Source: Nocardioides sp. Kera G14 (GTDB lineage Bacteria > Actinomycetota > Actinomycetes > Propionibacteriales > Nocardioidaceae). Taken from it: 64,000 nt of DNA. The DNA lies in NCBI RefSeq assembly GCF_020715565.1, contig NZ_CP085839.1, positions 1,798,001-1,862,000 of the forward strand, read 5' to 3'. Position 1 is the first letter of the stretch; each line of letters starts with the position of its first letter. The notes under the pieces are model-generated. The model had not been told where the DNA came from. It searched no databases and worked only from the letters and a program-made list of their open reading frames with translations. A program made the translations under genes and the position numbers. Shown here piece by piece: positions 8,209 through 56,446 of this stretch.

Positions 8209-8507
8209 CAGTCGACACCGAGCCCGACCGGCAGCGAGCCGTCGGCGACCGCAGCCTCGATGGAGGCGGCCATCCGCGGGCAACCGCCCTGGATCGACCG
8301 GCGCGGCCCCTCGGGAATGCGTCGGGTGAGATCCGGGCACTGTGCCTCGGCCTCAGCGGTCCACTGGATGGAGGTCATGTGCTCACTGTTCTTCCTCACG
8401 CCGACGCGGGCAAGGCAGTCGAGGCACGCGACCTCCGTGAGTCCGGCGGCGGTGTAGCGCTCGCGGTCGGCCAGCGTCTCGGCGCTGGTCGGGGCGAAGG
8501 AGACCAT
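8208..8507 (-). CDS. Small cysteine-containing protein between kshA and kshB
   Basis: A 99-residue protein with four cysteines: a CLDC pair at 29 and 32 and single cysteines near 57 and 76. The rest is charged and soluble. The CxxC...C...C spacing could bind zinc or an Fe-S cluster, but I recognise no family. Its start and stop overlap those of kshA and kshB (ATGA at 8507; one shared base at 8208), so it is translated as part of the ksh unit. A role in electron transfer, cluster assembly or stability of the oxygenase is inference. Confidence 0.75.
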   Translation of the reverse strand: MVSFAPTSAETLADRERYTAAGLTEVACLDCLARVGVRKNSEHMTSIQWTAEAEAQCPDLTRRIPEGPRRSIQGGCPRMAASIEAAVADGSLPVGLGVD

Positions 8508-9652
8508 CAGTGAGCCGTGCCCTCGAGCTCTGCCTTGGCCTTCAGGTTCTCGGCGACCTCGGCGTGCCAGTACTCGTTGGCCTTGGTGGTGTCGACCTCG
8601 AACTCGAAGCGCGCGGTCATGTCGGGCTCGATGTCGGCGACGTCGACGTAGAACTGCTCGTACCAGCGGCGGAGCTGGTAGACGGGTCCGTCCTCCTCGC
8701 AGAGCAGCGGGTTCTGCACGGGGGCCTTGTTCTCCCAGATGTGGACGTCCTGGAGGAAGCCCGAGCCGAACATGTCGGTGTACTTCTTCGCGATGTAGTC
8801 CGCCGTGGCGTCGTCGAGCCCCTCCGGCTTGCGGACCGAGAGCCCGTAGTGGAGCGAGAAGGAGGTCGGGCCGGTCGGGATGTGGCAGTTGATCAGGATG
8901 ACCTCGGTCTTGAAGCCCTTGTAGTCGGTCTCCAGCCAGTTGATCATGTACGCCGGGCCGTAGTAGGTCGCCTCCGAGGAGAGGAAGAGGTCCTCGCCGG
9001 CGTACCCGCCCTGCTCGGCGGCCTTGTCGGGCCGGCCGACGGACTTCATGTACTGCGTGGCCTGGGTGCCCTCGAAGACGTTGCGGAAGTCGGTCGGGAA
9101 GGCGAAGTGCACGTAGTAGAAGTGCGCCATGTCCACGACGTTGTCGACGAGCTCGCGGCAGTGGGAGCCGTTGATCTCGACGACGTTCCAGTTGAACGGC
9201 GTGTACTCGCCGTCGGCCAGGCCGGGCAGCTCCGGCGGCAGGATGTCGTGGTCGGCGGCCGACCCCTCGGGGTCGTGCCAGAAGAGGATCTGGCCGTTGC
9301 GGACGACCGTCTCGTAGCGCTGCGTGCGGGCCCGGAGCGGGACCCGGCGCGCGTAGGGAATCTCCTTGCACTTCCCGTCGCCACCCCAGCGCCAGTCGTG
9401 GAACGGACACGCGATGTTGTCGCCCTTGACCGTGCCCTGCGTCAGGTCGCCGCCCATGTGCCGGCAGAAGCCGTCGAGCACGTGGACCTCGCCCTTCGAG
9501 TCGGCCCAGACGACGAGCTTGCCGCCGAACGCGGGCACCGCGTGGGGCTTGCCGTCGGCGAAGTCGGAGAGCAGCCCGATGCAGTGCCAACCGCGCGCAT
9601 AACGCTCCGGCGTGGTCCCCTTGTCGAGACTGCGTGACTCAAACTGCAACAT
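8507..9652 (-). CDS. kshA: 3-ketosteroid 9alpha-monooxygenase, oxygenase component KshA
   Basis: A 381-residue Rieske non-haem iron oxygenase. The Rieske ligands are Cys63, His65, Cys82 and His85 (CRHMGGDL, CPFHDWRWGGDGKC). The mononuclear iron motif is DMAHFYYVH, with Asp174, His177 and His182. The C-terminal YQLRRWYEQFYVDVADI is nearly identical to mycobacterial KshA. It hydroxylates C9 of 3-ketosteroids and so opens ring B. The ATG at 9652 lies inside a KstR operator, and a TAAAAC hexamer on the minus strand ends six bases before it, so the mRNA is probably leaderless. The KshB partner is two genes downstream. Confidence 0.95.
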   Translation of the reverse strand: MLQFESRSLDKGTTPERYARGWHCIGLLSDFADGKPHAVPAFGGKLVVWADSKGEVHVLDGFCRHMGGDLTQGTVKGDNIACPFHDWRWGGDGKCKEIPYARRVPLRARTQRYETVVRNGQILFWHDPEGSAADHDILPPELPGLADGEYTPFNWNVVEINGSHCRELVDNVVDMAHFYYVHFAFPTDFRNVFEGTQATQYMKSVGRPDKAAEQGGYAGEDLFLSSEATYYGPAYMINWLETDYKGFKTEVILINCHIPTGPTSFSLHYGLSVRKPEGLDDATADYIAKKYTDMFGSGFLQDVHIWENKAPVQNPLLCEEDGPVYQLRRWYEQFYVDVADIEPDMTARFEFEVDTTKANEYWHAEVAENLKAKAELEGTAH

Positions 9653-30525: not shown

Positions 30526-30539
30526 AAGAACACGTTCTA
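30526..30539. promoter_or_regulatory. KstR operator 5, AAGAACACGTTCTA (one mismatch)
   Basis: It matches TNNAACNNGTTNNA at seven of eight fixed positions (A instead of the first T). It lies ten bases before the fadA5 ATG and 62 bases before the cyp125 GTG. TAGTTT at 30538-30543 is a -10 hexamer ending six bases before fadA5. Confidence 0.85.
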
Positions 30540-42757: not shown

Positions 42758-44004
42758 CACGCCTCCCTGACGGTGAACGTGGTCGGCAGGGCGGCGAAGC
42801 CCCGCACGCTGGTGGAGTGCACGCGGACGGCGCGCTCGGCGTCGACCTCGAAGGAGGCCACCCGCCGGACGAGCTCGGCGAGGACGATCCGCGCCTCCAG
42901 CCGCGCCAGGTTGGCGCCGAGGCAGAAGTGGCGGCCGTTGCCGAAGCTGAGGATCTGCGAGAGCTCCTCCTCGTCGCGGGAGAGGTCGAAGGTCGTCGGC
43001 TCGGTGAAGAGGGACTCGTCCCGATTCGCCGACCCCAGCAGGAGCAGCAGCTTGGATCCGGCGGGGACGGTCTGGCCGTGGAGTTCGACGTCCTCGGCGA
43101 CGTACCGGGCGAGCATCTGGCTCGAGGTGTCGTGCCGCAGGGTCTCCTCGATCCACGGGCGCACCGCCTCCTCGGCCTGCTCCGGATCGGCGAAGACGCG
43201 CGCCAGCTGGTCCGGGTGGGCGGACAGGTGGAAGAGCGCGTTGCCGAGCAGCTTCGTGGTCGTCTCGTTGCCGGCGACGACCATGAGGAAGAGGAAGCCG
43301 ATGATCTCCTCGTCGGTGAGGTGGTCCCCGGCCACCTCGGCCTCGATCAACGCGGAGGTGAGGTCCTCGCTGGGCTGCTCGCGCCTCTGGTGGACCATCG
43401 CCTGGTAGTAGGCGATCAGCTCGAACGCGGCCTCTACCCCGGTCGCGGGCACGTCACGAACACCGTCCTCCCGGTGCACCACGAGGTCGGCCAGGCGGCG
43501 CACCTCGTCGCGATCGGCGGACGGGACGCCCATCATCTCGGAGATGACGTCCATCGGGAGCTTGCCGGCGAACTCGGCGATCCAGTCGACCTCCTCCCCC
43601 TTGCTCGCGCGGGCGAGCATCAGGTCGAGGTAGTGGTCGGTGAGCTCCTGGATCTGGGGCGTGAGGGCGAGCACGCGCCGCGGCGTGAAGCCCGCCGACA
43701 CCAGCCGGCGCAGCCGGGTCTGGGCGTCGCCGTCCAGGGCGAGGAAGCTCATCACGGTGTGGGCATGCTCGTTCCACGCGCTCGCGTCGAGGGAGACACC
43801 CATCCGGTTGGAGAAGCGGACGTCGTCCTTGAGCGCGGCGAGGATGTCGGCGTGCCTGCTCAGCGCCCAGAAGCCATCGGCCTCGGAGTGGTAGAGCGGC
43901 GCCTCTGCACGCAGGCGGGCGTACGTCGGGTACGGGTCCTCGTGGAAGTCGTAGTCGTACGGGTCGAAGACCAGGTCGCCTGCGTGCGGCACGGTTGCGG
44001 TCAT
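42757..44004 (-). CDS. cyp123: Cytochrome P450 CYP123-like
   Basis: A 415-residue P450. DPYDYDFHEDPYPTYARLR, GKLPMDVISEMMGVP, the I-helix FLFLMVVAGNETTTK, EETLRHDTSSQ and the haem loop FGNGRHFCLGANLAR (Cys361) match CYP123, the orphan P450 beside CYP51 in mycobacteria. Its substrate is unknown in the literature I know. The start overlaps the TetR stop by four bases. Confidence 0.9.
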   Translation of the reverse strand: MTATVPHAGDLVFDPYDYDFHEDPYPTYARLRAEAPLYHSEADGFWALSRHADILAALKDDVRFSNRMGVSLDASAWNEHAHTVMSFLALDGDAQTRLRRLVSAGFTPRRVLALTPQIQELTDHYLDLMLARASKGEEVDWIAEFAGKLPMDVISEMMGVPSADRDEVRRLADLVVHREDGVRDVPATGVEAAFELIAYYQAMVHQRREQPSEDLTSALIEAEVAGDHLTDEEIIGFLFLMVVAGNETTTKLLGNALFHLSAHPDQLARVFADPEQAEEAVRPWIEETLRHDTSSQMLARYVAEDVELHGQTVPAGSKLLLLLGSANRDESLFTEPTTFDLSRDEEELSQILSFGNGRHFCLGANLARLEARIVLAELVRRVASFEVDAERAVRVHSTSVRGFAALPTTFTVREA

Positions 44005-44591
44005 GAGTTCCCCCTGAGGATCACGGCGATCGACGCTTCCAGCCGCGAGGCCATCTCGTCGTAGGTCATCAGCCCCATGCCCGCCTGGAGCAGTCCGCCC
44101 GAGAAGGCGAGCAGCAGGGTCTCGAGCACCGCCGGGTCGGGCTCGTGGTCGTCGGTGGCCAGCGCCGCCCGGATCCGGCCGAGCAGCTCGGCACCGATCT
44201 TGAGTCGCAGCCGGTCCACGTCGGGGTCGGTGCTCAACAGCGCCGGCGTCACCGCTGCAGCCAGGGCCGGCTCGTCGGTGATCTGCTCGGTGAGCTCGCG
44301 CACGGCGTGCTGGACCCGGGCCGTCACGGTGGCGTCGGCAGCGGCGGCCGTGGACGGCCGGGCGGCGAGCTTGCGCGAGAAGAGCTCGGCGAAGAGGTGG
44401 TTCTTCGAGGCGAGGTAGGTGTACGCCGTGGCCGGCGAGACCCCCGCCCGCTGGGCGACGTTCCGGATCGTGAGGGCCTCGTGGCCCGTCACGCGGAGCT
44501 CGGCCAGGCCCGCCGTGAGCAGTCGGTCGACGGTCTCGGCCTGGCGGGCGTTCAGGCCCTGCCGCGGGATCTCAGACACCTGACTGGACAT
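44001..44591 (-). CDS. TetR-family regulator of the CYP51 operon (Rv0767c-like)
   Basis: A 196-residue TetR protein. The N-terminal helix-turn-helix at about 41-60 reads TIRNVAQRAGVSPATAYTYL and is followed by ASKNHLFAELF; the C-terminal ligand domain is all-helical. It is the first gene of the operon. A perfect TGGACA-NN-TGTCCA palindrome overlaps its ATG, which indicates autoregulation. The same palindrome recurs at 54763, so it probably controls at least one distant promoter. The ligand is likely a CoA thioester or sterol (inference). Confidence 0.9.
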   Translation of the reverse strand: MSSQVSEIPRQGLNARQAETVDRLLTAGLAELRVTGHEALTIRNVAQRAGVSPATAYTYLASKNHLFAELFSRKLAARPSTAAAADATVTARVQHAVRELTEQITDEPALAAAVTPALLSTDPDVDRLRLKIGAELLGRIRAALATDDHEPDPAVLETLLLAFSGGLLQAGMGLMTYDEMASRLEASIAVILRGNS

Positions 44592-44598
44592 ATGTCCA
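44585..44598. promoter_or_regulatory. Palindromic operator TGGACATATGTCCA at the TetR start
   Basis: A perfect 14-base palindrome containing the start codon of the TetR gene (ATG, minus strand, 44591). A half-site GTGTCCAGA follows at 44619-44627. It is a probable autoregulatory site for the TetR protein and the whole CYP51 operon, which runs to 34983. Confidence 0.75.
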
Positions 44599-44631: not shown

Positions 44632-45234
44632 TCATTCACCGTTGGGCAGGCAGAGTCGGCAGGGCGCGAGCCCGCCGCGGTTCGGGCCGGCAGGGCTCAG
44701 GTCGTCACGACCCGCCAGCAGGTCACAGTCGGCACGGTGGAGCGTCGTGCCGGCACCGGCGACGACGAGGACCGAGCCCGGATCGACCTGGGCCGCCGGA
44801 GTCGCCGCAGGCGCCGCGCTCGTCCGTGCCACGGCGTCGGCGAGCACGAGGAGGGTGTCGGCCAGTCGCTTCGAGGCCTCCTTCTGGTCCGCTGCCACGC
44901 GGGCCATCCAGGCACCGAAGTACAGGAACCCGCCACACAGGGTGAGGCCGAGGCCCAGGATGCCACCCGACACCAGATAGGAGAGCTGGTCGTACTCGTA
45001 CGGCGTGTGGGCGATCCCGTACCACCCCAGGCCGATGACGATGAGGCCCAGCGGCAGCAACAACGCGCCCCCGACGAACAGCGCCTGGTGGAGGAGCTGC
45101 GCGTTGTTGCCCCGGAGCGGGGCGACGCCGCTCCCACTCCCGGCCCGCGGGAGGGCATACGTCGGCGGCGGCTGCGCCGGCCCTGCATGGCTCGGCACCG
45201 CGAGCAGCGACCTTGTCTGATCCGTCGTCATCAC
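44632..45234 (-). CDS. Two-TM membrane protein with C-terminal Cys/His motif, last gene of the ABC operon
   Basis: A 200-residue protein. A Pro/Gly-rich N-terminus of about 45 residues is followed by transmembrane segments near 51-71 and 86-108, a heptad-like helix at 110-140, and a C-terminal HRADCDLL...PCRLC segment with His166, Cys170, Cys192 and Cys195. The last resembles small metal-binding motifs seen at the ends of actinobacterial membrane proteins. I know no function. The start overlaps the stop of the surface-protein gene (ATGA), so it is the sixth gene of the Liv-type ABC operon. Confidence 0.7.
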   Translation of the reverse strand: MMTTDQTRSLLAVPSHAGPAQPPPTYALPRAGSGSGVAPLRGNNAQLLHQALFVGGALLLPLGLIVIGLGWYGIAHTPYEYDQLSYLVSGGILGLGLTLCGGFLYFGAWMARVAADQKEASKRLADTLLVLADAVARTSAAPAATPAAQVDPGSVLVVAGAGTTLHRADCDLLAGRDDLSPAGPNRGGLAPCRLCLPNGE

Positions 45235-46855
45235 GACACCTTTCGGAGGTCCGGCAGGCCCGATCTGAGCCCGTGACTACACGCACCGGCACCGCCGAAG
45301 ACGGCACCGAACCCCTTGCGCAACCACCAGGCCGCGCCGGCCGCCAGGGCGAGTCCGCCCAGCAGCAACGCTCCGGGCACACTGCCCAGGGCGGGAAGCC
45401 CGGGCGCCGCACTGACGGGCGTGAGCGTGGTGGCGCCGACAGGCGCAGCACCATCCACGGCGGAGCTGTCCGGCACCGCGGCCACACCCGTGTCGACGGG
45501 ACCGCTCGCGGAGGCGGGCCCGGCGGCCGCGGCTCCTGCGGCCACCGGCGCAGGGGCTGCCGGTGCGGCCGTCGACGCCCCGGCGCCGTCGGCGGTGAAC
45601 GGCGCCGCGATCTGCACCTTGGACGAGACCTCGCCGAGCTTCACCACGAGCTTGGGATGCGCCTCGAGCGCCGCCAGCAGGAGGCCCTTGGCCTGCCCGG
45701 CCGAATCGGGCAGCTGGTTGACCAGGTCGGCGAGCGGAAGCTTGTTCAAGGAGAGCAGGCTCACCACCGGCTCGCTGTCGAGCGTGAGCGTCGGCCCGGC
45801 CGCGGACGAGGAGGCCGTCGACCCGTCCACGCTCCTCGTGGGCTTGGGCAGCTCGAGGCTGATGCCGAGCTGCTTGAGCGCCGACAACGGGTTGTCGGAG
45901 AGGCCCGGGATGGCAGTCGTGGAACCGGCGGCCACGATGCCGTCGGAGGTGAACTCGAACGGTGTCCCGAGGATCGTCATCCGGCCATAGGTGGACGTGG
46001 GCGTCGTGGTGGCCGCCCCCACCTTGCCGACGGTCGTCGACGACACGGTCAGGCCCTCCAGCTTCACCAGCCCGCCGAGCAGGGTCACCTGGCCGATCTG
46101 GCCGACGGCGGTCGCCGTGACGCTGTCGGCGGCGTACGTCGCCCGCGAACTGCCGCTCATGCCGCCCACGTCGACGAGGATGCTGAGGGCGCCGAGCGGG
46201 TTGCTCGAATCGGTCGGCGCAGGACCGTTCGTCTTGCCGCTCAGGGCGTTGCCCAGCGCAGCGAGGCCGTCACCGAGTGAACCGAGCGGGTTGGAGGTGC
46301 CGGCCGAGGTGCTCGGGCTGGCGCTCGCAGACGGCGTGCTGCCGGTCTCGTCGCCTGCCACCGTGCCCGAGGGCGAGTAGCCGGCCCGCGCCACCGCTCC
46401 CGTCTCGCTCGCGCTGACCCGGCCGACCATGCCGGGGAAGAACTCTTGGGAGCTCGAGCTGGCGTCACCGGGGAAGGCGGCGTTGACCTGGGCCGGATAG
46501 CCGTTGGCCGGCGCCAGCTGTGGAGGCAGGCCCGCCTGGCTGATGATCGTGGTCAGGCCCTCACCGACGGCCGCACCGGGCCAGAGCGACGAGGCCCGGG
46601 CCGAGGACGTCGGGCCGGAGGCCCCCTCGACGTGGGTGTAGGAGAAGTTGAGCTCGGCCTGCGGCGAGGCCGGGATCGGGATCGCGGGCTCGTAGACCTC
46701 GATCCGGAACGGCGTCGACGTCGCAGAGGCGGCGAAGCCGCCGTACGACGGCGCCGGGGCGGTGTCGTCCGCGAACGCGGGCAGGGCCGCGGCCGGCCAG
46801 ACCAGGCCGGCGCAGGCGAGCGCGGCAGCCGTCCGGCGGATCGGCGTGGTGATCC

Positions 46856-46859
<4 letters not shown>
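45231..46859 (-). CDS. Exported, membrane-anchored protein of unknown function in the ABC operon
   Basis: A 542-residue protein with a Sec signal peptide (cleavage likely after AFA at about 30). A beta-rich region rich in Ser/Thr/Gly includes repeat-like stretches (VGQIGQVTLLGGLVKLEGL; VGKVGAATTT). A long Ala/Pro-rich linker spans about 430-490. One C-terminal transmembrane helix (GALLLGGLALAAGAAWW) is followed by a basic tail. It should stand on the outer face of the membrane. Start and stop overlap those of the ATPase gene and the small membrane protein gene by four bases each, which argues for a joint function with the transporter. I do not recognise the family. Confidence 0.75.
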
Positions 46860-47559
<700 letters not shown>

Positions 47560-47563
<4 letters not shown>

Positions 47564-48297
47564 GACGCAGCTCCTTCGACATAACCGAGGTAGGCCTGCT
47601 GGACCTTGGGGTCGGTGCGGATCTCGGCCGGCGGACCGGAGGCGATGATCGAGCCGAAGTCGAGGACGTGCAGCGTGCTGCAGACCGACATCACGAGATC
47701 CATGTCGTGCTCGACCATGAGGACGGTGCGCCCCTCGTCCGCGAGCTCGAGCAGCAGGTGCCCGAACTCCTTCGTCTCCTGCTCGTCGAGACCCGAGGAC
47801 GGCTCGTCGAGGAGCAGGAGGCGCGGGTCACACGCGAGGGCCCGGGCCAGCTCCAGGAGGCGGGCCGTGCCGGTCGGGATCGCGTCGGCACGCTGGTCGG
47901 CGTGCGCGGCGATGCCGACCCGCTCGAGGAGCCGGTCGGCGGCGGTGTCGGTGGAGCGCCGCCAGCCGAGCATGCCGTGGTGGATGTCGAGCGCCGCCCG
48001 GACGTTCTCCCGCACGGTGAGCGAGCCGAAGGCCTCGAGCCGCTGGAACGTCCGGCCGATCCCCCGTCGTGCGCGACGACTGACGGCGGCGCGCGTGACG
48101 TCGTGGCCGTCGAGGAACACCCGCCCGGACGTGGGCGTCTGCAGGCCCGTGATGACGTTGAAGCAGGTGGTCTTGCCGGCACCGTTGGGGCCGATCAGGC
48201 CGGTCACGGTGCCCGCGTCCACCGCGAAGTTCGCGTGGTTCACGGCCGTCACGCCGCCGAACTGCACCGTGACGTCATCGACCGACAACAGCGACAT
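47560..48297 (-). CDS. ABC transporter ATP-binding protein, LivG type
   Basis: A 245-residue ATPase with Walker A GPNGAGKTT (36-44), RRARRGIGRTFQRLEAF typical of LivG, and Walker B LLLLDEPSSGLDE. The ABC signature is degenerate: IPTGTARLLELARAL where LivG proteins have LSYGQQRRLE. One ATP site of the LivFG pair may therefore be non-canonical. I start it at ATG 48297; an in-frame extension to 48327 lies inside the permease gene. It overlaps the permease by 23 bases. Confidence 0.88.
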
Positions 48298-50203
48298 CGC
48301 GCTCCTCCTTCGTCGGGAAGTGCGCACTCAACTGGGGGAACTGCCTGTTGAAGAACGGCACGAGCCGGTTCGAGATGACCGGTCGGAGGCCGAAGAGCCG
48401 GTTGGCCAGGCCGTTCGGGTCGCGGCCGAGTGCCACGGCGCCGAAGCCGAGCACGACGAAGCAGAGCCCGGCGATCGCCGGGTGGTCGGACTGGGCGACC
48501 GGCAGGTACATCAGGAAGAGCCCGCCCAGGAGCGCTCCGGTCACCGACGTGGCACCGAAGACGACGGCGGCCAGGAGGAGCAGCAGGCTGTTGAAGAACT
48601 GGAAGTCGCCCGCCCCGATGGTGCCCCGCAGTCCGGCGAAGAGCGCGCCGCCCAGCCCTGCGATCCCGGCCGACGCGGCGAAGAGTCCGACGCGGAACCA
48701 ACGCAGGTCGAGCCCGAGGGTGCCGCACGCGGCCTGGCTGTCGCGGCTGGCGATCAGGACCCGGCCCAGCGGCCCGCGGCGCAGCGCGAGGACCCCGAGG
48801 CCGACGAGTACGAACGCGAGCATCATCACGCCGACGTACGCCCCGAGGTCGGAGAACCGGATGCCGAAGACGGAGAGTCGCTCGGCCGCCAGCGTGCCGC
48901 CCGGCTTGAAGGCCCACGAGGCCGCGAAGATGAGCTTGTCCATCAACTGCGCAAACGCGAGCGTGCTGAGGGCGAGGTAGAGGCCGGTCAGCCGGAGGGT
49001 CGGCAGCGCGACCAGGCCACCGGCCAGGGCGGCGACCAGCGCCGCGATGAGCACTCCGAGCAGGTTCGGCTGATCGATCTTGGCGTAGGTGAGGGCACCG
49101 ACCCCGGCGAACGACAGCTGGGCGAGGGAGACGTGGCCGCCGTACCCGGTCAGCAGGACCATCGAGAGCATCACGATGGCGTACGCCGCCGCCGTGCCCC
49201 ACCGTAGGAGGCTGACGTCGGAGAGGAAGGCGACGAGGAGGAGCGAGAACCCGATCGTGCCTGCGGCCCAGGCGAGGCTCTTCCGAGCACTGGGAACCGG
49301 GGCGGCGAGGAGCCCGCGGACCTGGCCGATCCGCAGCGAGGCCTGGGGCACCAGGAGGATCACGGCGAAGAGGAAGAGGGTCGGCATCACGGCCCGCAGC
49401 CCGCTCAGGTCGCCGGTGCCGGGCAGGTAGCCCACCGCGTAGGACTGCAGGAGCCCGAGCGCCATGGCGCCGGCGTAGGTGAGCGGGAGGCTGCGCAGCC
49501 GGCCGAGCATGGCGGCCGCATAGGCGCTGATGACCAGGAGGGTGAGGTCGTAGTACTGCAGGCCGATCACCGGGGTGAGCATGATGCCGGCGAGGGCGGC
49601 GAGGGACATCCCGACGGCCCACGCGAGGGCCGCCACGACCTGCGGTCGACCGCCGTACAGCCGCAGGAGGTCGGGGTTGTCGACGCTGGCCCGCATGGCG
49701 GTGCCGATCCGGGTGCGGTTCAGCAACAGGTAGAGCCCGCCTGCGACCACGCCGGAGAGGACGATGGTGATCACCTCGTGCCAGGTGATCAGGACGCTGC
49801 CGAGATGGATCAGGTGACCGTCGAAGAACTGGGGGACGTTGCGGGCCGCCGGCTTCCAGACCTGGGTGGCCAGGCCGATCAGGCCGACCAGCAGTCCGAC
49901 CGTGACCACGAGTGAGACCCCGACCGGGGCGGAGCCGAGGCCGCGGGCGACGAAGCGCTCGACCACGATGCCCGCGATCGGTGCGACGACGAGCAGGACC
50001 AGGGCAAGCGCGAGCCAGCCGGGAAGGCCCTGTCGCTGGCTGAAGTCCCAGTAGACGAAGGCGAAGACCATCCCGAACGCGCCGTGGGCGACGTTGAAGA
50101 CCCGGGTCGTGTTGTAGGTGAGCACCAGCCCGCTCGCCGCGATGGCGTAGGCCGCCCCCGTGAAGAGGCCGATGACGGTGTAGGAGAGGAAGGCGCCCAT
50201 CAC
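48275..50203 (-). CDS. Fused LivH-LivM ABC permease
   Basis: A 642-residue protein. Residues 1-300 form a LivH-type permease (GLVLTYNTTRVFNVAHGAFG, NRTRIGTAMRASVDNPDLL). Residues 310-620 form a LivM-type permease (LLTGYGGHVSLAQLSFAGVGA, GPLGRVLIASRDSQAACGTLG). The two permeases are usually separate genes. The fusion supplies the whole membrane pore of a HAAT-family importer, with about 16-18 hydrophobic segments. It begins one base after the binding-protein stop codon. Confidence 0.88.
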   Translation of the reverse strand: MMGAFLSYTVIGLFTGAAYAIAASGLVLTYNTTRVFNVAHGAFGMVFAFVYWDFSQRQGLPGWLALALVLLVVAPIAGIVVERFVARGLGSAPVGVSLVVTVGLLVGLIGLATQVWKPAARNVPQFFDGHLIHLGSVLITWHEVITIVLSGVVAGGLYLLLNRTRIGTAMRASVDNPDLLRLYGGRPQVVAALAWAVGMSLAALAGIMLTPVIGLQYYDLTLLVISAYAAAMLGRLRSLPLTYAGAMALGLLQSYAVGYLPGTGDLSGLRAVMPTLFLFAVILLVPQASLRIGQVRGLLAAPVPSARKSLAWAAGTIGFSLLLVAFLSDVSLLRWGTAAAYAIVMLSMVLLTGYGGHVSLAQLSFAGVGALTYAKIDQPNLLGVLIAALVAALAGGLVALPTLRLTGLYLALSTLAFAQLMDKLIFAASWAFKPGGTLAAERLSVFGIRFSDLGAYVGVMMLAFVLVGLGVLALRRGPLGRVLIASRDSQAACGTLGLDLRWFRVGLFAASAGIAGLGGALFAGLRGTIGAGDFQFFNSLLLLLAAVVFGATSVTGALLGGLFLMYLPVAQSDHPAIAGLCFVVLGFGAVALGRDPNGLANRLFGLRPVISNRLVPFFNRQFPQLSAHFPTKEERDVAVVGR

Positions 50204-50204
50204 G

Positions 50205-51701
50205 TCAGCCCTTCGTCACGCCGTCGCACTCATAGCCGCCCAGCGAATTCCACTTGCCGCCCTTGAGCTGGATGAAGCGCCAACAGGAGCCGTTCATCTT
50301 GCCGCCGACGTTCTGCGGGGCGGTCATCCCTCCGGCCGTCCAGTTGGTGACGCTCTTGAGGGAGTTGAGGAAGCTCGCCCGGGTGAGCTTGCCGCCGAGC
50401 GCCTGCGCCTGCTTGACGAAGAGCGCCGCCGCCGACCACGCCATCACGCCGTAGAAGGTGGGATTCGCCCCCGGCGCCACCTGCTGCAACCACTTCAGGT
50501 ACGTGCTCATCTCCGGGTTCGAGGACGCCTGGGAGAACGGCACGAAGTTCATGTAGACGTAGGTGCCCTCACCGGCCGCGCCGGCCTGCGAGACGTAGGA
50601 CGGGTCATAGATCGTGGGGTCCTGGATGAAGATCTCCGGCTTGAAGTCCGCCTGCTGCATGGCCTGCTGCAGCCGCACCGTGTTCTGGTAGGCACCGAAG
50701 AACCAGACGTACTTCACGCCCTTGCTCTTCATCGCCTGCACGTAGGGGCCGTAGTTGAACTCCGTGACGCCGATGCCGGCGTTGTAGACCCACTTCATGC
50801 CGAGCTTGGTCCCGACCTTCACGACGGTCTGGGCGTTCTGCGCGGCACCGCCAGCGTCGAGGTAGACCATCGCCGCAGCCTGGGTGGCCGCCTTGTTCGT
50901 CTTGATGAAGTGGGTCATCGGGGCGTTCTCGAAGTACGCCGCGTTGCTGCCCATCGAGGCGTAGCAGGTGGTGCAGGCCGCACGCTCGTTGGTCGTCGAG
51001 CCCGCGCGCAGGTCCGGAAGGCCGCAGCTCTGGGCTGTGGCGGCACCGCCGGAGTCGAAGGCCGACATCGAGCCGATCGCGGCGAAGGACTTCGAGCACA
51101 GGGTCTGGTAGGCCTGCTGGTCGCCGCCACCGTCGGTGCGGGTGTCCTGGGCCTCCAGCGCGAGCTTGCGGCCGCAGATGCTCGAGGTCGAGTTGAAGTA
51201 GGCGATGTACGCCTTCACCGCCTGCTGCGCGGCGGTGAAGAGGCCCGGCACCGGGCCGCTGATGTCGGAGGCGTTGCCGAGCGTGATCGTCGAGCTCGTG
51301 ATCCCGGGGCCGTTCGCGAACCCGGCGCATGACCCCACGGCGCCTGCGGCCGCCCCGCCGGCCTTCCCCGGTGCCGCTGCGCCTGCCTTGGCGCCGCCGG
51401 TCCCCCCGGCTGCCGCTGCCGCTCCTCCTCCGGAGGCGGCGGGAGCTGCGGCTCCGCCACCGGAGGCCGCGGCGGCGCCGGACCCGGCCGTGGGATCCGT
51501 GACGCCGCCCGCCGCGGTTCCGTCCGTGGTCGTGCCGCCCGCAGCGTCGGCGACGGCGGCTCCGCCGGCCGTGCCACCGGCGACCGCGTCGTTCGCCGCG
51601 CGCACGGCCTGGGGACTCATCTGGGAGCCGCCGCAGGCGGCCGGGACGAACAGGATCAGTAGCAGCAGAGCGACCCGGAGGTAGCGGAGCATCGGTCGCA
51701 T
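50205..51701 (-). CDS. ABC transporter substrate-binding lipoprotein (Liv type) with Gly/Ala linker
   Basis: A 498-residue lipoprotein. The signal peptide ends in a lipobox VPAAC with Cys23. An Ala/Gly/Thr-rich unstructured linker of about 90 residues comes next (35-123). A type I periplasmic-binding fold then follows (ITLGNASDISGPVPGLF, YVWFFGAYQNTVRLQQAM, FYGVMAWSAAALFVKQA). Cysteine pairs in the binding domain (CTTC, C-terminal C...C) suggest disulfides. The long linker would carry the domain across the thick envelope. First gene of the operon; KstR operator 6 lies 85 bases upstream and GAAGGG precedes the start. Confidence 0.87.
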   Translation of the reverse strand: MRPMLRYLRVALLLLILFVPAACGGSQMSPQAVRAANDAVAGGTAGGAAVADAAGGTTTDGTAAGGVTDPTAGSGAAAASGGGAAAPAASGGGAAAAAGGTGGAKAGAAAPGKAGGAAAGAVGSCAGFANGPGITSSTITLGNASDISGPVPGLFTAAQQAVKAYIAYFNSTSSICGRKLALEAQDTRTDGGGDQQAYQTLCSKSFAAIGSMSAFDSGGAATAQSCGLPDLRAGSTTNERAACTTCYASMGSNAAYFENAPMTHFIKTNKAATQAAAMVYLDAGGAAQNAQTVVKVGTKLGMKWVYNAGIGVTEFNYGPYVQAMKSKGVKYVWFFGAYQNTVRLQQAMQQADFKPEIFIQDPTIYDPSYVSQAGAAGEGTYVYMNFVPFSQASSNPEMSTYLKWLQQVAPGANPTFYGVMAWSAAALFVKQAQALGGKLTRASFLNSLKSVTNWTAGGMTAPQNVGGKMNGSCWRFIQLKGGKWNSLGGYECDGVTKG

Positions 51702-51735
51702 CTCGTGGCGTATCCCTTCAAGACCGGACAGTCCT

Positions 51736-51751
51736 TATGACCTACATCACA
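51736..51751. promoter_or_regulatory. CRP-like site TATGA-N6-TCACA upstream of the ABC operon
   Basis: TATGACCTACATCACA fits TGTGANNNNNNTCACA at nine of ten defined positions. It lies 35-50 bases before the start of the substrate-binding lipoprotein gene, between that gene and KstR operator 6. Confidence 0.4.
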
Positions 51752-51785
51752 TAACCGCGGAACGGCGGGAGGGTTACGCCGAAAG

Positions 51786-51799
51786 TGCAACTTGTTCTA
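51786..51799. promoter_or_regulatory. KstR operator 6, TGCAACTTGTTCTA, upstream of the ABC operon
   Basis: It matches all eight fixed positions of TNNAACNNGTTNNA. It overlaps the stop codon of the DapB-like gene (51797-51799) and lies 85 bases upstream of the substrate-binding lipoprotein start. It is the only box here not between divergent starts, and the transcription start it serves is not obvious. Confidence 0.7.
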
Positions 51800-52876
51800 C
51801 TTCTTGAAGCGCCCGGCGAAACCGCGGAGCGGCAGGTCCGCACTGGTGAGGACGCCGGGCGCCGCCGCGACCACCGCGCGGATGGAGTTGAGCGCCGGAA
51901 GGCCGGTGACCGTCATGCCGATCGACGCGAAGTCCTCGGCACGGGAGAGGTCGACGCCGGGCGCAGGGAAGATCATGTGCTTGTTGTAGATCTGCGGGTC
52001 GCCGATGATCTGCGTGATGTAGCAGCCCTTGATGTCCCAGCTCGGGCTGGTGTGTGGCGTCATCTGCCACTCGATGTGCGTCTCGATGCGCGGCACGCCG
52101 TCGACGGTGCCGACGTACTTCACGTAGCTGCCCCCGAGGGAGCCCTCGGGCAGCTGGTACCAGCCGAGGTCGACGTCCTTCGTGCAGGCGCCGAGCTCGT
52201 ACTCGAACCGGACGTCGTCGAGCTCGAGGTCGAAGGCGTCGGCCATCATCCAGACGGAGTCGGCGAAGACCTCGGTGTACTTGCGCAGCATCGAGGGCAA
52301 CTCCGGGTCGTCGACAGGACGGCCGTAGCCGACCTCGCGCCAGGTCGCCGAGGAGTGGTGGCAGGAGACGTCCACCGACTCGATGGTCGTGATGTGCTCG
52401 ATCTCAGCGACGTCGGCGGAGCTGACGACACCGAGGATCTGGTTGAGGCCCGGGTTCATCCCCGTTCCGTAGAAGGTGACGCCGCCGCGCTTGGCCGCCT
52501 CGTCGAGGATCTCGGTCCAGGGCCGGCCCGTCTCGGACGGATGGTTGGCGTTGCGGTGATGGCCGGTGATCCAGTCGGCCGTGGTGACGATGTTGATCCC
52601 GGCCTCGAGCACCCGGATGTAGAGGTCCTCGTCGGGGAAGACGCCGTGGAAGGTCACGACGTCGGGCTTCGCCTCGATGATCTCCTCCACCGTGCCGGTG
52701 GCGCGGATCCCGACGGGGTCGAGGCCGGCGAGCTCGCCGACGTCGCGTCCCACCTTGTCGGGGGTGTAGACGTGGACGCCGATCAGCTCGAGGTCGCGGT
52801 GCCGGCCGATCCTCTTGATCATCTCGCTGCCGACGTTGCCGGTCGCGACCTGGAAGACGCGGATCGACTGGCTCAT
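51797..52876 (-). CDS. DapB-like NAD(P)-dependent oxidoreductase, paralog 1
   Basis: A 359-residue protein of the dihydrodipicolinate reductase-like/amine-dehydrogenase group. The Rossmann start VFQVATGNVGSEMIKRI is followed by VGVHVYTPDKVGRDVGEL-like segments, GINIVTTADWITGHH, and GGVTFYGTGMNPGLNQIL. The paralog at 59980-61083 has the same plan. The true substrate in steroid clusters is unknown. Start at ATG 52876, overlapping the Rieske gene stop by four bases; the frame upstream to 52918 lies within that gene. Confidence 0.82.
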   Translation of the reverse strand: MSQSIRVFQVATGNVGSEMIKRIGRHRDLELIGVHVYTPDKVGRDVGELAGLDPVGIRATGTVEEIIEAKPDVVTFHGVFPDEDLYIRVLEAGINIVTTADWITGHHRNANHPSETGRPWTEILDEAAKRGGVTFYGTGMNPGLNQILGVVSSADVAEIEHITTIESVDVSCHHSSATWREVGYGRPVDDPELPSMLRKYTEVFADSVWMMADAFDLELDDVRFEYELGACTKDVDLGWYQLPEGSLGGSYVKYVGTVDGVPRIETHIEWQMTPHTSPSWDIKGCYITQIIGDPQIYNKHMIFPAPGVDLSRAEDFASIGMTVTGLPALNSIRAVVAAAPGVLTSADLPLRGFAGRFKK

Positions 52877-53892
52877 GACTTCTCCTGCTCGTTGCTGGGG
52901 TAGAACTGCTGGGCCCACGCGCGGAGTGCGGTGAAGCCGGGGTACTCGCCGCGCGACAGGGCCGCCGGGTCGGCGTACTTCTGGTGGGACCAGATCACGA
53001 GGTCGGCCTCGACCTGCTCGATCACGAACCGGGCGGCCTTGGCGGCCGCCTCGACGTCCGCCTCGCCGCCGCCGGACGGGTCGTTGCCGATCCAGACCGA
53101 GAAGCGGACGTCACAGGTCGCGTCGTCGACCGGCGTGACGGCGAGCATCGTGCGGTTGTCGACCATGCCGTGACTCTTGGTGATCGCGAACCCGAGGCCG
53201 ACGTTGATCGCCTCGACGCCGGAGTCGATCTCCTCGATGCTGCCCGGCTCGCCCTCGAAGGCGACGGTGAAGTCGACGTAGGAGAGGGGCTGGTCGAAGT
53301 CCTGACGGGTGAACTGCGGGATGATCGGGACCTGGTGCACGTACTTGAAGTGGGCGAAGTCGACGCCGTTCTCCAGGACGTACTGGGGATGGAGCTCCTG
53401 CGCGGGATCGAAGAGGACGTTGCCGGGATAGCTGCGGTGGTAGTCGTCCGCCGACCGGCCGTCGTCCCAAGCGGTGAAGATCTCCGGCACGTCGAAGTAG
53501 GGCTCGCGATGCTCCCCCGACGCGTCGTGCCACAGGTAGATCGACTCGTTCACCTCACGCACCGGGTAGGTGCGGATCTTCTTGCCGATGTTGGGCCGGT
53601 CCTCGTACGGGATGCAGACGTTGCGCCCCGCCGCATTCCACTGCCAGCCGTGGAACGGGCACTGGATCGCGTCCTCACCGTCGCGCTCGACCACGGTCCC
53701 GCCGTAGCCGAGGTGGGCGCCGAGGTGCTCGCAGTAGGCCTCCATGATCGTGACCCGTCCGGAGACGCCGCGCCAGGCGATGAGGTCATGACCGAAGTAG
53801 GTCATCCGATGGACGCCGCCGACCGGGACCTCCTCGGACCAGGCGACCTGGAACCACCCCGTAGGGCGCATGTTCAGTGTGGGCTTGACCAT
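52873..53892 (-). CDS. KshA-like Rieske oxygenase, second copy type
   Basis: A 339-residue Rieske oxygenase. Cluster ligands are Cys54, His56, Cys78 and His81 (CEHLGAH, CPFHGWQWN). The iron site is in NGVDFAHFKYVH with Asp178, His181 and His186. It is shorter than KshA and only distantly similar, and belongs to the KshA/cholesterol-desaturase-like (DAF-36/Neverland) side of the family by general appearance. No reductase lies next to it, so it may share KshB (inference). It lies in an isomerase-Rieske-DapB-like operon behind KstR operator 7. Confidence 0.85.
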   Translation of the reverse strand: MVKPTLNMRPTGWFQVAWSEEVPVGGVHRMTYFGHDLIAWRGVSGRVTIMEAYCEHLGAHLGYGGTVVERDGEDAIQCPFHGWQWNAAGRNVCIPYEDRPNIGKKIRTYPVREVNESIYLWHDASGEHREPYFDVPEIFTAWDDGRSADDYHRSYPGNVLFDPAQELHPQYVLENGVDFAHFKYVHQVPIIPQFTRQDFDQPLSYVDFTVAFEGEPGSIEEIDSGVEAINVGLGFAITKSHGMVDNRTMLAVTPVDDATCDVRFSVWIGNDPSGGGEADVEAAAKAARFVIEQVEADLVIWSHQKYADPAALSRGEYPGFTALRAWAQQFYPSNEQEKS

Positions 53893-54729: not shown

Positions 54730-54743
54730 TAGAACGTGTTACA
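54730..54743. promoter_or_regulatory. KstR operator 7, TAGAACGTGTTACA
   Basis: It matches all fixed positions of TNNAACNNGTTNNA, between the isomerase operon (minus) and the CoA ligase at 54798 (plus). A second palindrome of another type begins 19 bases away at 54763. Confidence 0.85.
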
Positions 54744-54762: not shown

Positions 54763-54776
54763 TGGACAGGTGTCCA
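54763..54776. promoter_or_regulatory. Palindromic operator TGGACAGGTGTCCA, same type as the CYP51-operon TetR site
   Basis: Perfect 6-2-6 palindrome, extended to CTGGACA..TGTCCAG at 54762-54777, 21 bases before the GTG of the CoA ligase. The half-sites are identical to those at 44585-44598. No other copy was noticed in the window. Confidence 0.7.
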
Positions 54777-56393: not shown

Positions 56394-56446
56394 ACCGATT
56401 TCCTCAAACCGGTTGCAATTGCCCCCGCGCGGGCGCATGGTTTCGA

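Follow-up and report, generated by a model that had tools for sequence, protein, structure and literature searches.

The window analysed here is a 64-kb stretch of Nocardioides sp. Kera G14 (NZ_CP085839.1), bases 1798001–1862000 of a single-contig 3.47-Mb genome, and it carries a putative importer operon preceded by a KstR-type operator. Positions are those of the window, except that seven-digit and kb positions refer to the genome. Six genes on the minus strand (44632–51701) encode a substrate-binding protein (SBP), a fused permease, a LivG-type and a LivF-type ATPase and two envelope proteins, and adjacent genes are separated by 1 base or overlap by 4 to about 50 bases. This gene content down to 44632, given in an initial annotation made from the sequence, agrees with our Pfam and domain matches. 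The six genes are best explained as one operon for an ATP-binding cassette (ABC) importer of HAAT type.

The SBP (50205–51701, minus strand) is a lipoprotein of 498 amino acids, assigned to the HAAT type by Pfam (Peripla_BP_6) and alignment. By eye it has a lipobox-like PAAC, and its low-complexity linker covers about residues 40–121. Past the linker, eight cysteines are invariant in an alignment of 19 proteins. The permease (48275–50203, minus strand; 642 amino acids) contains two BPD_transp_2 stretches, the front half being UrtB/LivH-like and the back half UrtC/LivM-like. The LivG-type ATPase (47560–48297, minus strand, with an alternative start at 48327) matches ABC_tran and BCA_ABC_TP_C, and the LivF-type ATPase (46856–47563, minus strand) matches ABC_tran. 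A Peripla_BP_6 SBP of HAAT fold, LivH/LivM-type permease domains and LivG/LivF-type ATPases are thus all present, and Pfam found no MlaD/MCE domains among the operon proteins, as a system of Mce4 type would carry. At the level of NCBIfam, no model matched the SBP, and the LivF, LivG, LivH and LivM models all scored below their cut-offs. The last two genes encode a beta-rich protein of 542 amino acids (45231–46859, minus strand) and a protein of 200 amino acids with hydrophobic stretches judged by eye (44632–45234, minus strand), neither of which matched a Pfam family. By eye, the former begins with a signal-peptide-like segment; it also has a C-terminal helix at residues 494–521 and a conserved C-terminal tail, and its likeness to choice-of-anchor P is weak (22.5 bits against a cut-off of 27).

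The operator, TGCAACTTGTTCTA at 51786–51799 (strand given as “.”; TAGAACAAGTTGCA as read on the minus strand), fits TnnAACnnGTTnnA exactly, and TnnAACnnGTTnnA is the published consensus of the KstR palindrome (PMC1995591). The initial annotation had named this site with a spacing of 85 bases; the site stands, and we count 84 bases between it and the SBP start codon (51701). It overlaps the stop codon (51797–51799) of the co-directional gene upstream. In the whole genome, 33 sites of the motif were found compared with 11 for the reversed pattern used as a control, and 17 of the 33 are packed into 1797781–1913419, which is 3.3% of the genome. The window holds 8 sites, with about 0.2 expected from the control rate. 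In a scoring matrix built from the other sites of the cluster, leaving out 51786 and 56404, the 51786 site reaches 29.6 bits and ranks seventh in the window, while background positions, counted without exact matches to the motif and without the AGAACACGTTCT core at 30527, reach at most 10.4 in the window. Because of the genome count against the reversed control, the clustering and the matrix score, the KstR-type operator at 51786 is not a chance occurrence. There is another exact match to the KstR pattern at 56404–56417, with a matrix score of just 5.2, which is probably due to chance.

The operator and the gene order recur in relatives, which was the conservation check proposed with the initial annotation. 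SBP matches numbered 34 in our genome set, spread over 16 of 58 genomes (host counted). The named SBP loci, which are the best 80 of 113 matches and comprise 76 distinct ones, come from Nocardioides, Marmoricola, Pimelobacter, a metagenome-assembled genome of Aeromicrobium and unclassified relatives. The SBP genes were grouped into 109 chains, each with one to three members, and the fused permease adjoins 74 of the chains; removing 6 with incomplete and 6 with identical upstream sequences left 62 distinct operons, similar but non-identical upstream sequences being retained. A KstR-like site (at least 17 bits, from –350 to +60 of the predicted SBP start) lies before the first gene in 57 of the 62. 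SBP starts are predicted, so operator distances are approximate. The controls gave 0 of 62 for the reversed pattern and 6 of 604 for internal 410-base windows, gaps between tandem genes included. After merging upstream sequences more than 85% alike, the site is found in 54 of 59. SBP chains without the permease carry it in 6 of 22 distinct cases (3 incomplete and 10 duplicates removed). In all loci with enough sequence (50 of 50), homologues of all six genes stand in the same order, including those of the 542- and 200-amino-acid proteins. Among these relatives, two strains of Pimelobacter (Nocardioides) simplex (L066 and L081) have the homologous operon with an exact KstR motif. Peripla_BP_6 loci with a KstR motif in their fetched flanks are 1 of 6 in the host and 1 of 14 in P. 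simplex, both of the window type. Outside the promoter, the flanking sequences of 60 loci (668,517 bases) contain 18 exact motifs and 0 reversed ones; therefore, neighbouring genes often belong to the regulon too.

A recurrent one-base operator variant with TAC for AAC lies upstream of L020–L023, L025–L028, L057, L062, L085 and others, and TAC-type sites are mostly closer to the start codon than exact sites. Two or three tandem SBP genes stand ahead of one permease in 27 of the 62 distinct operons (for example L033 and L038), 26 of them with a KstR-like site. In the permease tree (61 rows, midpoint root; L047 is tagged as “variant” there though it has no site), the deepest fork drawn has exact sites on either side, and rows with the same label tend to group together.

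The presence of the SBP also goes with the presence of KstR. Among 37 genomes of the host's genus, KstR is found in all 16 with the SBP versus 11 of 21 without it (p = 0.0017 in a Fisher test that ignores relatedness; cut-offs E 1e-50 for SBP and 1e-40 for KstR). The host's own KstR orthologue is at 1901043–1901606, and a KstR box lies at 1900874. The window itself forms a cluster for steroid catabolism, with KshA-type oxygenases, a ChsH2-type protein, thiolase-like proteins, AMP ligases and cytochromes P450. One KshA-type oxygenase is encoded at 8507–9652, and another KshA-type gene, whose best solved match is KshA, lies at 52873–53892, two genes upstream of the operon. The P450 at 42757 is closest to chains named CYP125MRCA. 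Altogether, the link to the regulon is stronger than the initial annotation had claimed, and the operon very probably belongs to the KstR regulon, as judged from its predicted operator and the recurrence of operator and gene order. A TetR gene adjacent to the operon (44001–44591) was tried as KstR and rejected, with 47 of 280 bits and with the orthologue at 1901 kb.

No Mce4 system was found in the window by Pfam scans of its 50 open reading frames, in agreement with the initial annotation. The genome holds 18 MlaD/MCE domains in three groups of six. One group, at 1905–1912 kb, begins some 44 kb beyond the end of the window and is preceded by a KstR box (1913406); the 1.8 kb between this box and the first MCE domain of the group would presumably fit two YrbE genes. 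The other two groups have no site of at least 14 bits in 18-kb stretches. In the host, the HAAT operon is, going by the predicted boxes, an addition to a KstR-boxed Mce operon. KstR and the operon are both present in three other genomes of the genus (G013, G018 and G035), where the operon sites score 26.7, 23.6 and 23.6 bits (L094, L103 and L099). Each of these genomes has six MCE domains only (L158–L160), in genes best matching the Mce operon at 259 kb of the host, and no site of at least 14 bits was found in 20 kb around each of these Mce operons. One or two genes flanking them match the KstR-type Mce operon best, and these are probably YrbE genes whose 259-kb counterparts are missing from the query set. 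The proposal of a route different from Mce4 is thus supported in part: the host also has a KstR-boxed Mce operon, and in the three genomes no KstR site accompanies the sole Mce operon. G021, in turn, combines KstR with that core Mce operon, has at most six MCE domains and gave no SBP match. Of the 27 KstR-positive genomes, 21 contain at least 12 MCE domains, and the SBP is present in 13 of these; the remaining 6 contain six MCE domains or none, and 3 of them carry the SBP. From this tally and from G021, the idea that the HAAT operon simply replaces Mce4 was rejected as a general explanation. Some genomes are rich in MCE domains, with 66 in G032, 60 in G033, 54 in G034 and 48 in G014; if there are six domains each, 48–66 domains correspond to eight to eleven Mce operons per genome.

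Other elements lie near the operator and at the far end of the operon. The stretch from the KstR box to the start codon contains a CRP-like palindrome, TGTGATGTAGGTCATA (51736–51751, minus strand), with one mismatch to the consensus TGTGAN6TCACA. In the 62 distinct upstream sequences, 44 contain such a palindrome with at most two mismatches and 11 with one mismatch, while shuffles, which preserve base composition only, predict 2.9 and 0.1. The operon may therefore be under joint control of steroid and carbon status. At the other end, a palindrome TGGACANNTGTCCA (44586–44597) coincides with the start codon of the TetR gene at 44001–44591. A second copy (54764–54775) lies beside a KstR box at 54730, and the palindrome is also found near the homologous TetR gene in L017, L068, L070, L087 and L120. 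The block of genes for TetR, P450, aldehyde dehydrogenase and short-chain dehydrogenase/reductase resembles the Rv0767c region. “Motif X” of the Rv0767c orthologue is described as located at the start codon of that orthologue and in some cases next to KstR sites (PMC6593523); the comparison of TGGACANNTGTCCA with motif X is one of position.

From the operon layout, protein family, operator, recurrence in relatives and co-occurrence with KstR, we infer KstR binding, induction, transport direction, cargo and a role of the envelope proteins as follows. The operon would encode a KstR-repressed importer of steroid acids, serving uptake or re-uptake beside Mce4, and we give this reading a probability of about 0.55. 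KstR bound at 51786–51799 would repress the operon. Oxidation of the sterol side chain would yield a CoA-thioester effector of KstR, and the operon would be switched on with the upper steroid pathway. On the outside of the membrane, the lipoprotein may capture an amphipathic carboxylic acid belonging to this pathway. Its cargo would be a seco-steroid acid or a steroid acid with an oxidised side chain, either external or leaked. The ligand would then be passed to the fused LivHM permease, with LivG and LivF driving transport, and the two extra envelope proteins may assist in ligand presentation or keep the complex anchored in the cell wall. Mce4 would work alongside and carry hydrophobic sterols.

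Several observations weigh against this reading. No KstR-like site was found before five operons (L042, L047, L068, L070 and L087), and of the 57 putative sites just 23 match the motif exactly, the others being 28 with TAC instead of AAC in the left half and 6 with different deviations. Eleven KstR-positive genomes of the genus have no SBP match at E 1e-50, and therefore the operon is not required by every KstR regulon. The KstR orthologue itself scores 267 bits with NF033703, of which the curated cut-off is 280; scores below this cut-off are obtained for 26 of the 27 KstR matches of the genus, the host's included. Foldseek places 3hut (a branched-chain amino acid binding protein) and 3td9 (LivK) above 4n03, which comes third, the PDB molecule name of 4n03 is also of “branched-chain amino acid” type, and most structural neighbours of the SBP have amino acids, urea, amides or aromatic acids as ligands. 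In addition, a study on N. simplex reports that orthologues of bile-salt transporters were not activated by lithocholate, while an Mce operon was (PMC7593942).

Of the four alternatives, a coincidental motif match in front of an operon that has nothing to do with KstR is hardly credible: the site does overlap the end of the upstream gene and departs from the full TAGAACNNGTTCTA palindrome on one side, but the genome control with its clustering, the matrix score and the recurrence before homologous operons led us to reject it. A transporter for common small substrates (amino acids, branched-chain or not, or aromatic acids) that happen to be required or at hand in steroid growth, with a logistic link to the regulon, would agree with the family annotation of the SBP (ABC-type branched-subunit amino acid system) and with most structural neighbours, including the best two of Foldseek. 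We consider it improbable, as the SBP has no NCBIfam match, the Liv models stay under their cut-offs, the other five Peripla_BP_6 loci of the host lack a KstR motif in their flanks, and 4n03 is the best VIA and sequence-profile match of the SBP (17% identity over 366 residues). Going by its title, the latter entry is the SBP of a fatty acid ABC transporter from Thermomonospora curvata.

The same title favours fatty, methyl-branched or terpenoid acids as the cargo, and the mycobacterial KstR regulon was described as one of lipid degradation (PMC1995591), so that the regulon would also serve general lipid use; with the operon inside a steroid cluster and a KshA-type gene two genes upstream, such a cargo is unlikely. 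The alternative with most in its favour is reassimilation only, in which leaked ring or side-chain intermediates are retaken during growth on sterols and the operon is no primary entry route. CamABCD, which is linked to cholate metabolites (PMC8399759, PMC6678751), provides a precedent, the same genome has a KstR-boxed Mce operon, and the effector of KstR is reported to be a pathway intermediate (PMC6678751). However, three genomes retain the operon without a KstR-type Mce operon, and CamABCD is a precedent by role. Reassimilation alone is therefore a possible but clearly less probable explanation, and it overlaps with the reading as a steroid-acid importer for uptake or re-uptake, so our estimates for the two do not sum to one.

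For the KstR-repressed steroid-acid importer, a wider proposal is tentative and somewhat doubtful: a non-Mce type of steroid uptake typical of Nocardioidaceae, consisting of a KstR-controlled HAAT importer with a beta-rich, membrane-anchored surface protein and a small membrane partner, which in some species (G013, G018 and G035) replaces Mce4 as the only KstR-linked importer identified. Steroid uptake in actinobacteria outside the mycolic acid bacteria was stated in a 2016 article to be unidentified (PMC4810484); for N. simplex, an Mce operon was later put forward (PMC7593942). Our literature search, which had supplementary tables outside its scope, found no report of a KstR-controlled transporter of HAAT or branched-chain type. 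According to PMC7807495, KstR sites had been predicted before 71 operons of N. simplex in a previous study; the homologous operon may be among those 71, so an earlier prediction in a table is possible. A conserved KstR-linked operon with a soluble, assayable SBP makes the uptake question open to ligand-binding and knockout tests. If the reading is true, transporters labelled as amino-acid importers can serve steroid catabolism. The operon may also be relevant to P. simplex, a species of biotechnological use in which two strains have the homologous operon.

Among known systems, CamABCD of Rhodococcus jostii RHA1 is an ABC importer described as taking up cholate metabolites (PMC8399759), and it resembles the window operon, by its described role, as an ABC importer serving steroid catabolism. 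Mce4 has in common with the operon that it is a KstR-boxed uptake system of the same regulon, but it consists of unrelated protein families; the N. simplex Mce operon was reported with a KstR site and as induced by cholesterol and lithocholate (PMC7593942).

Another HAAT operon inside a steroid regulon is found in P. simplex (G058:C2:244764–249583; L142 and L152), with two KstR2 boxes at C2:244764 and 244812 (the KstR2 motif is from PMC3068626). Its region fits cluster C by layout and by a CoA-transferase pair near it. From the gene order, this operon would be KR76_25195 and its neighbours, and KR76_25195, an “ABC amino acid transporter”, was reported as the N. simplex gene most induced by phytosterol (59-fold; PMC7807495). 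The cluster C operon differs from the window operon in having KstR2 boxes rather than a KstR box, a separate LivH and a LivM fused to an ATPase, and at E 1e-3 tblastn did not match its SBP to that of the window. KR76_25195 was tried as an orthologue of the window SBP and rejected, as the P. simplex homologue is on contig C4, with 0 of 8 CoA-transferase matches there, and the cluster C region holds a different, KstR2-boxed SBP. P. simplex also has a 76% identical orphan SBP at C2:276340. The cluster C case suggests that HAAT operons join steroid regulons in the genus, and has no bearing on expression of the window operon.

With the HAAT importers LivKHMGF and UrtABCDE, the window operon shares the SBP fold, a LivHM-type permease and LivG- and LivF-type ATPases. 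In contrast to them, it has a fused LivH-LivM, an SBP of 498 amino acids with a long linker, two extra envelope proteins that recur in every locus tested, and a KstR-type operator in front of its first gene.
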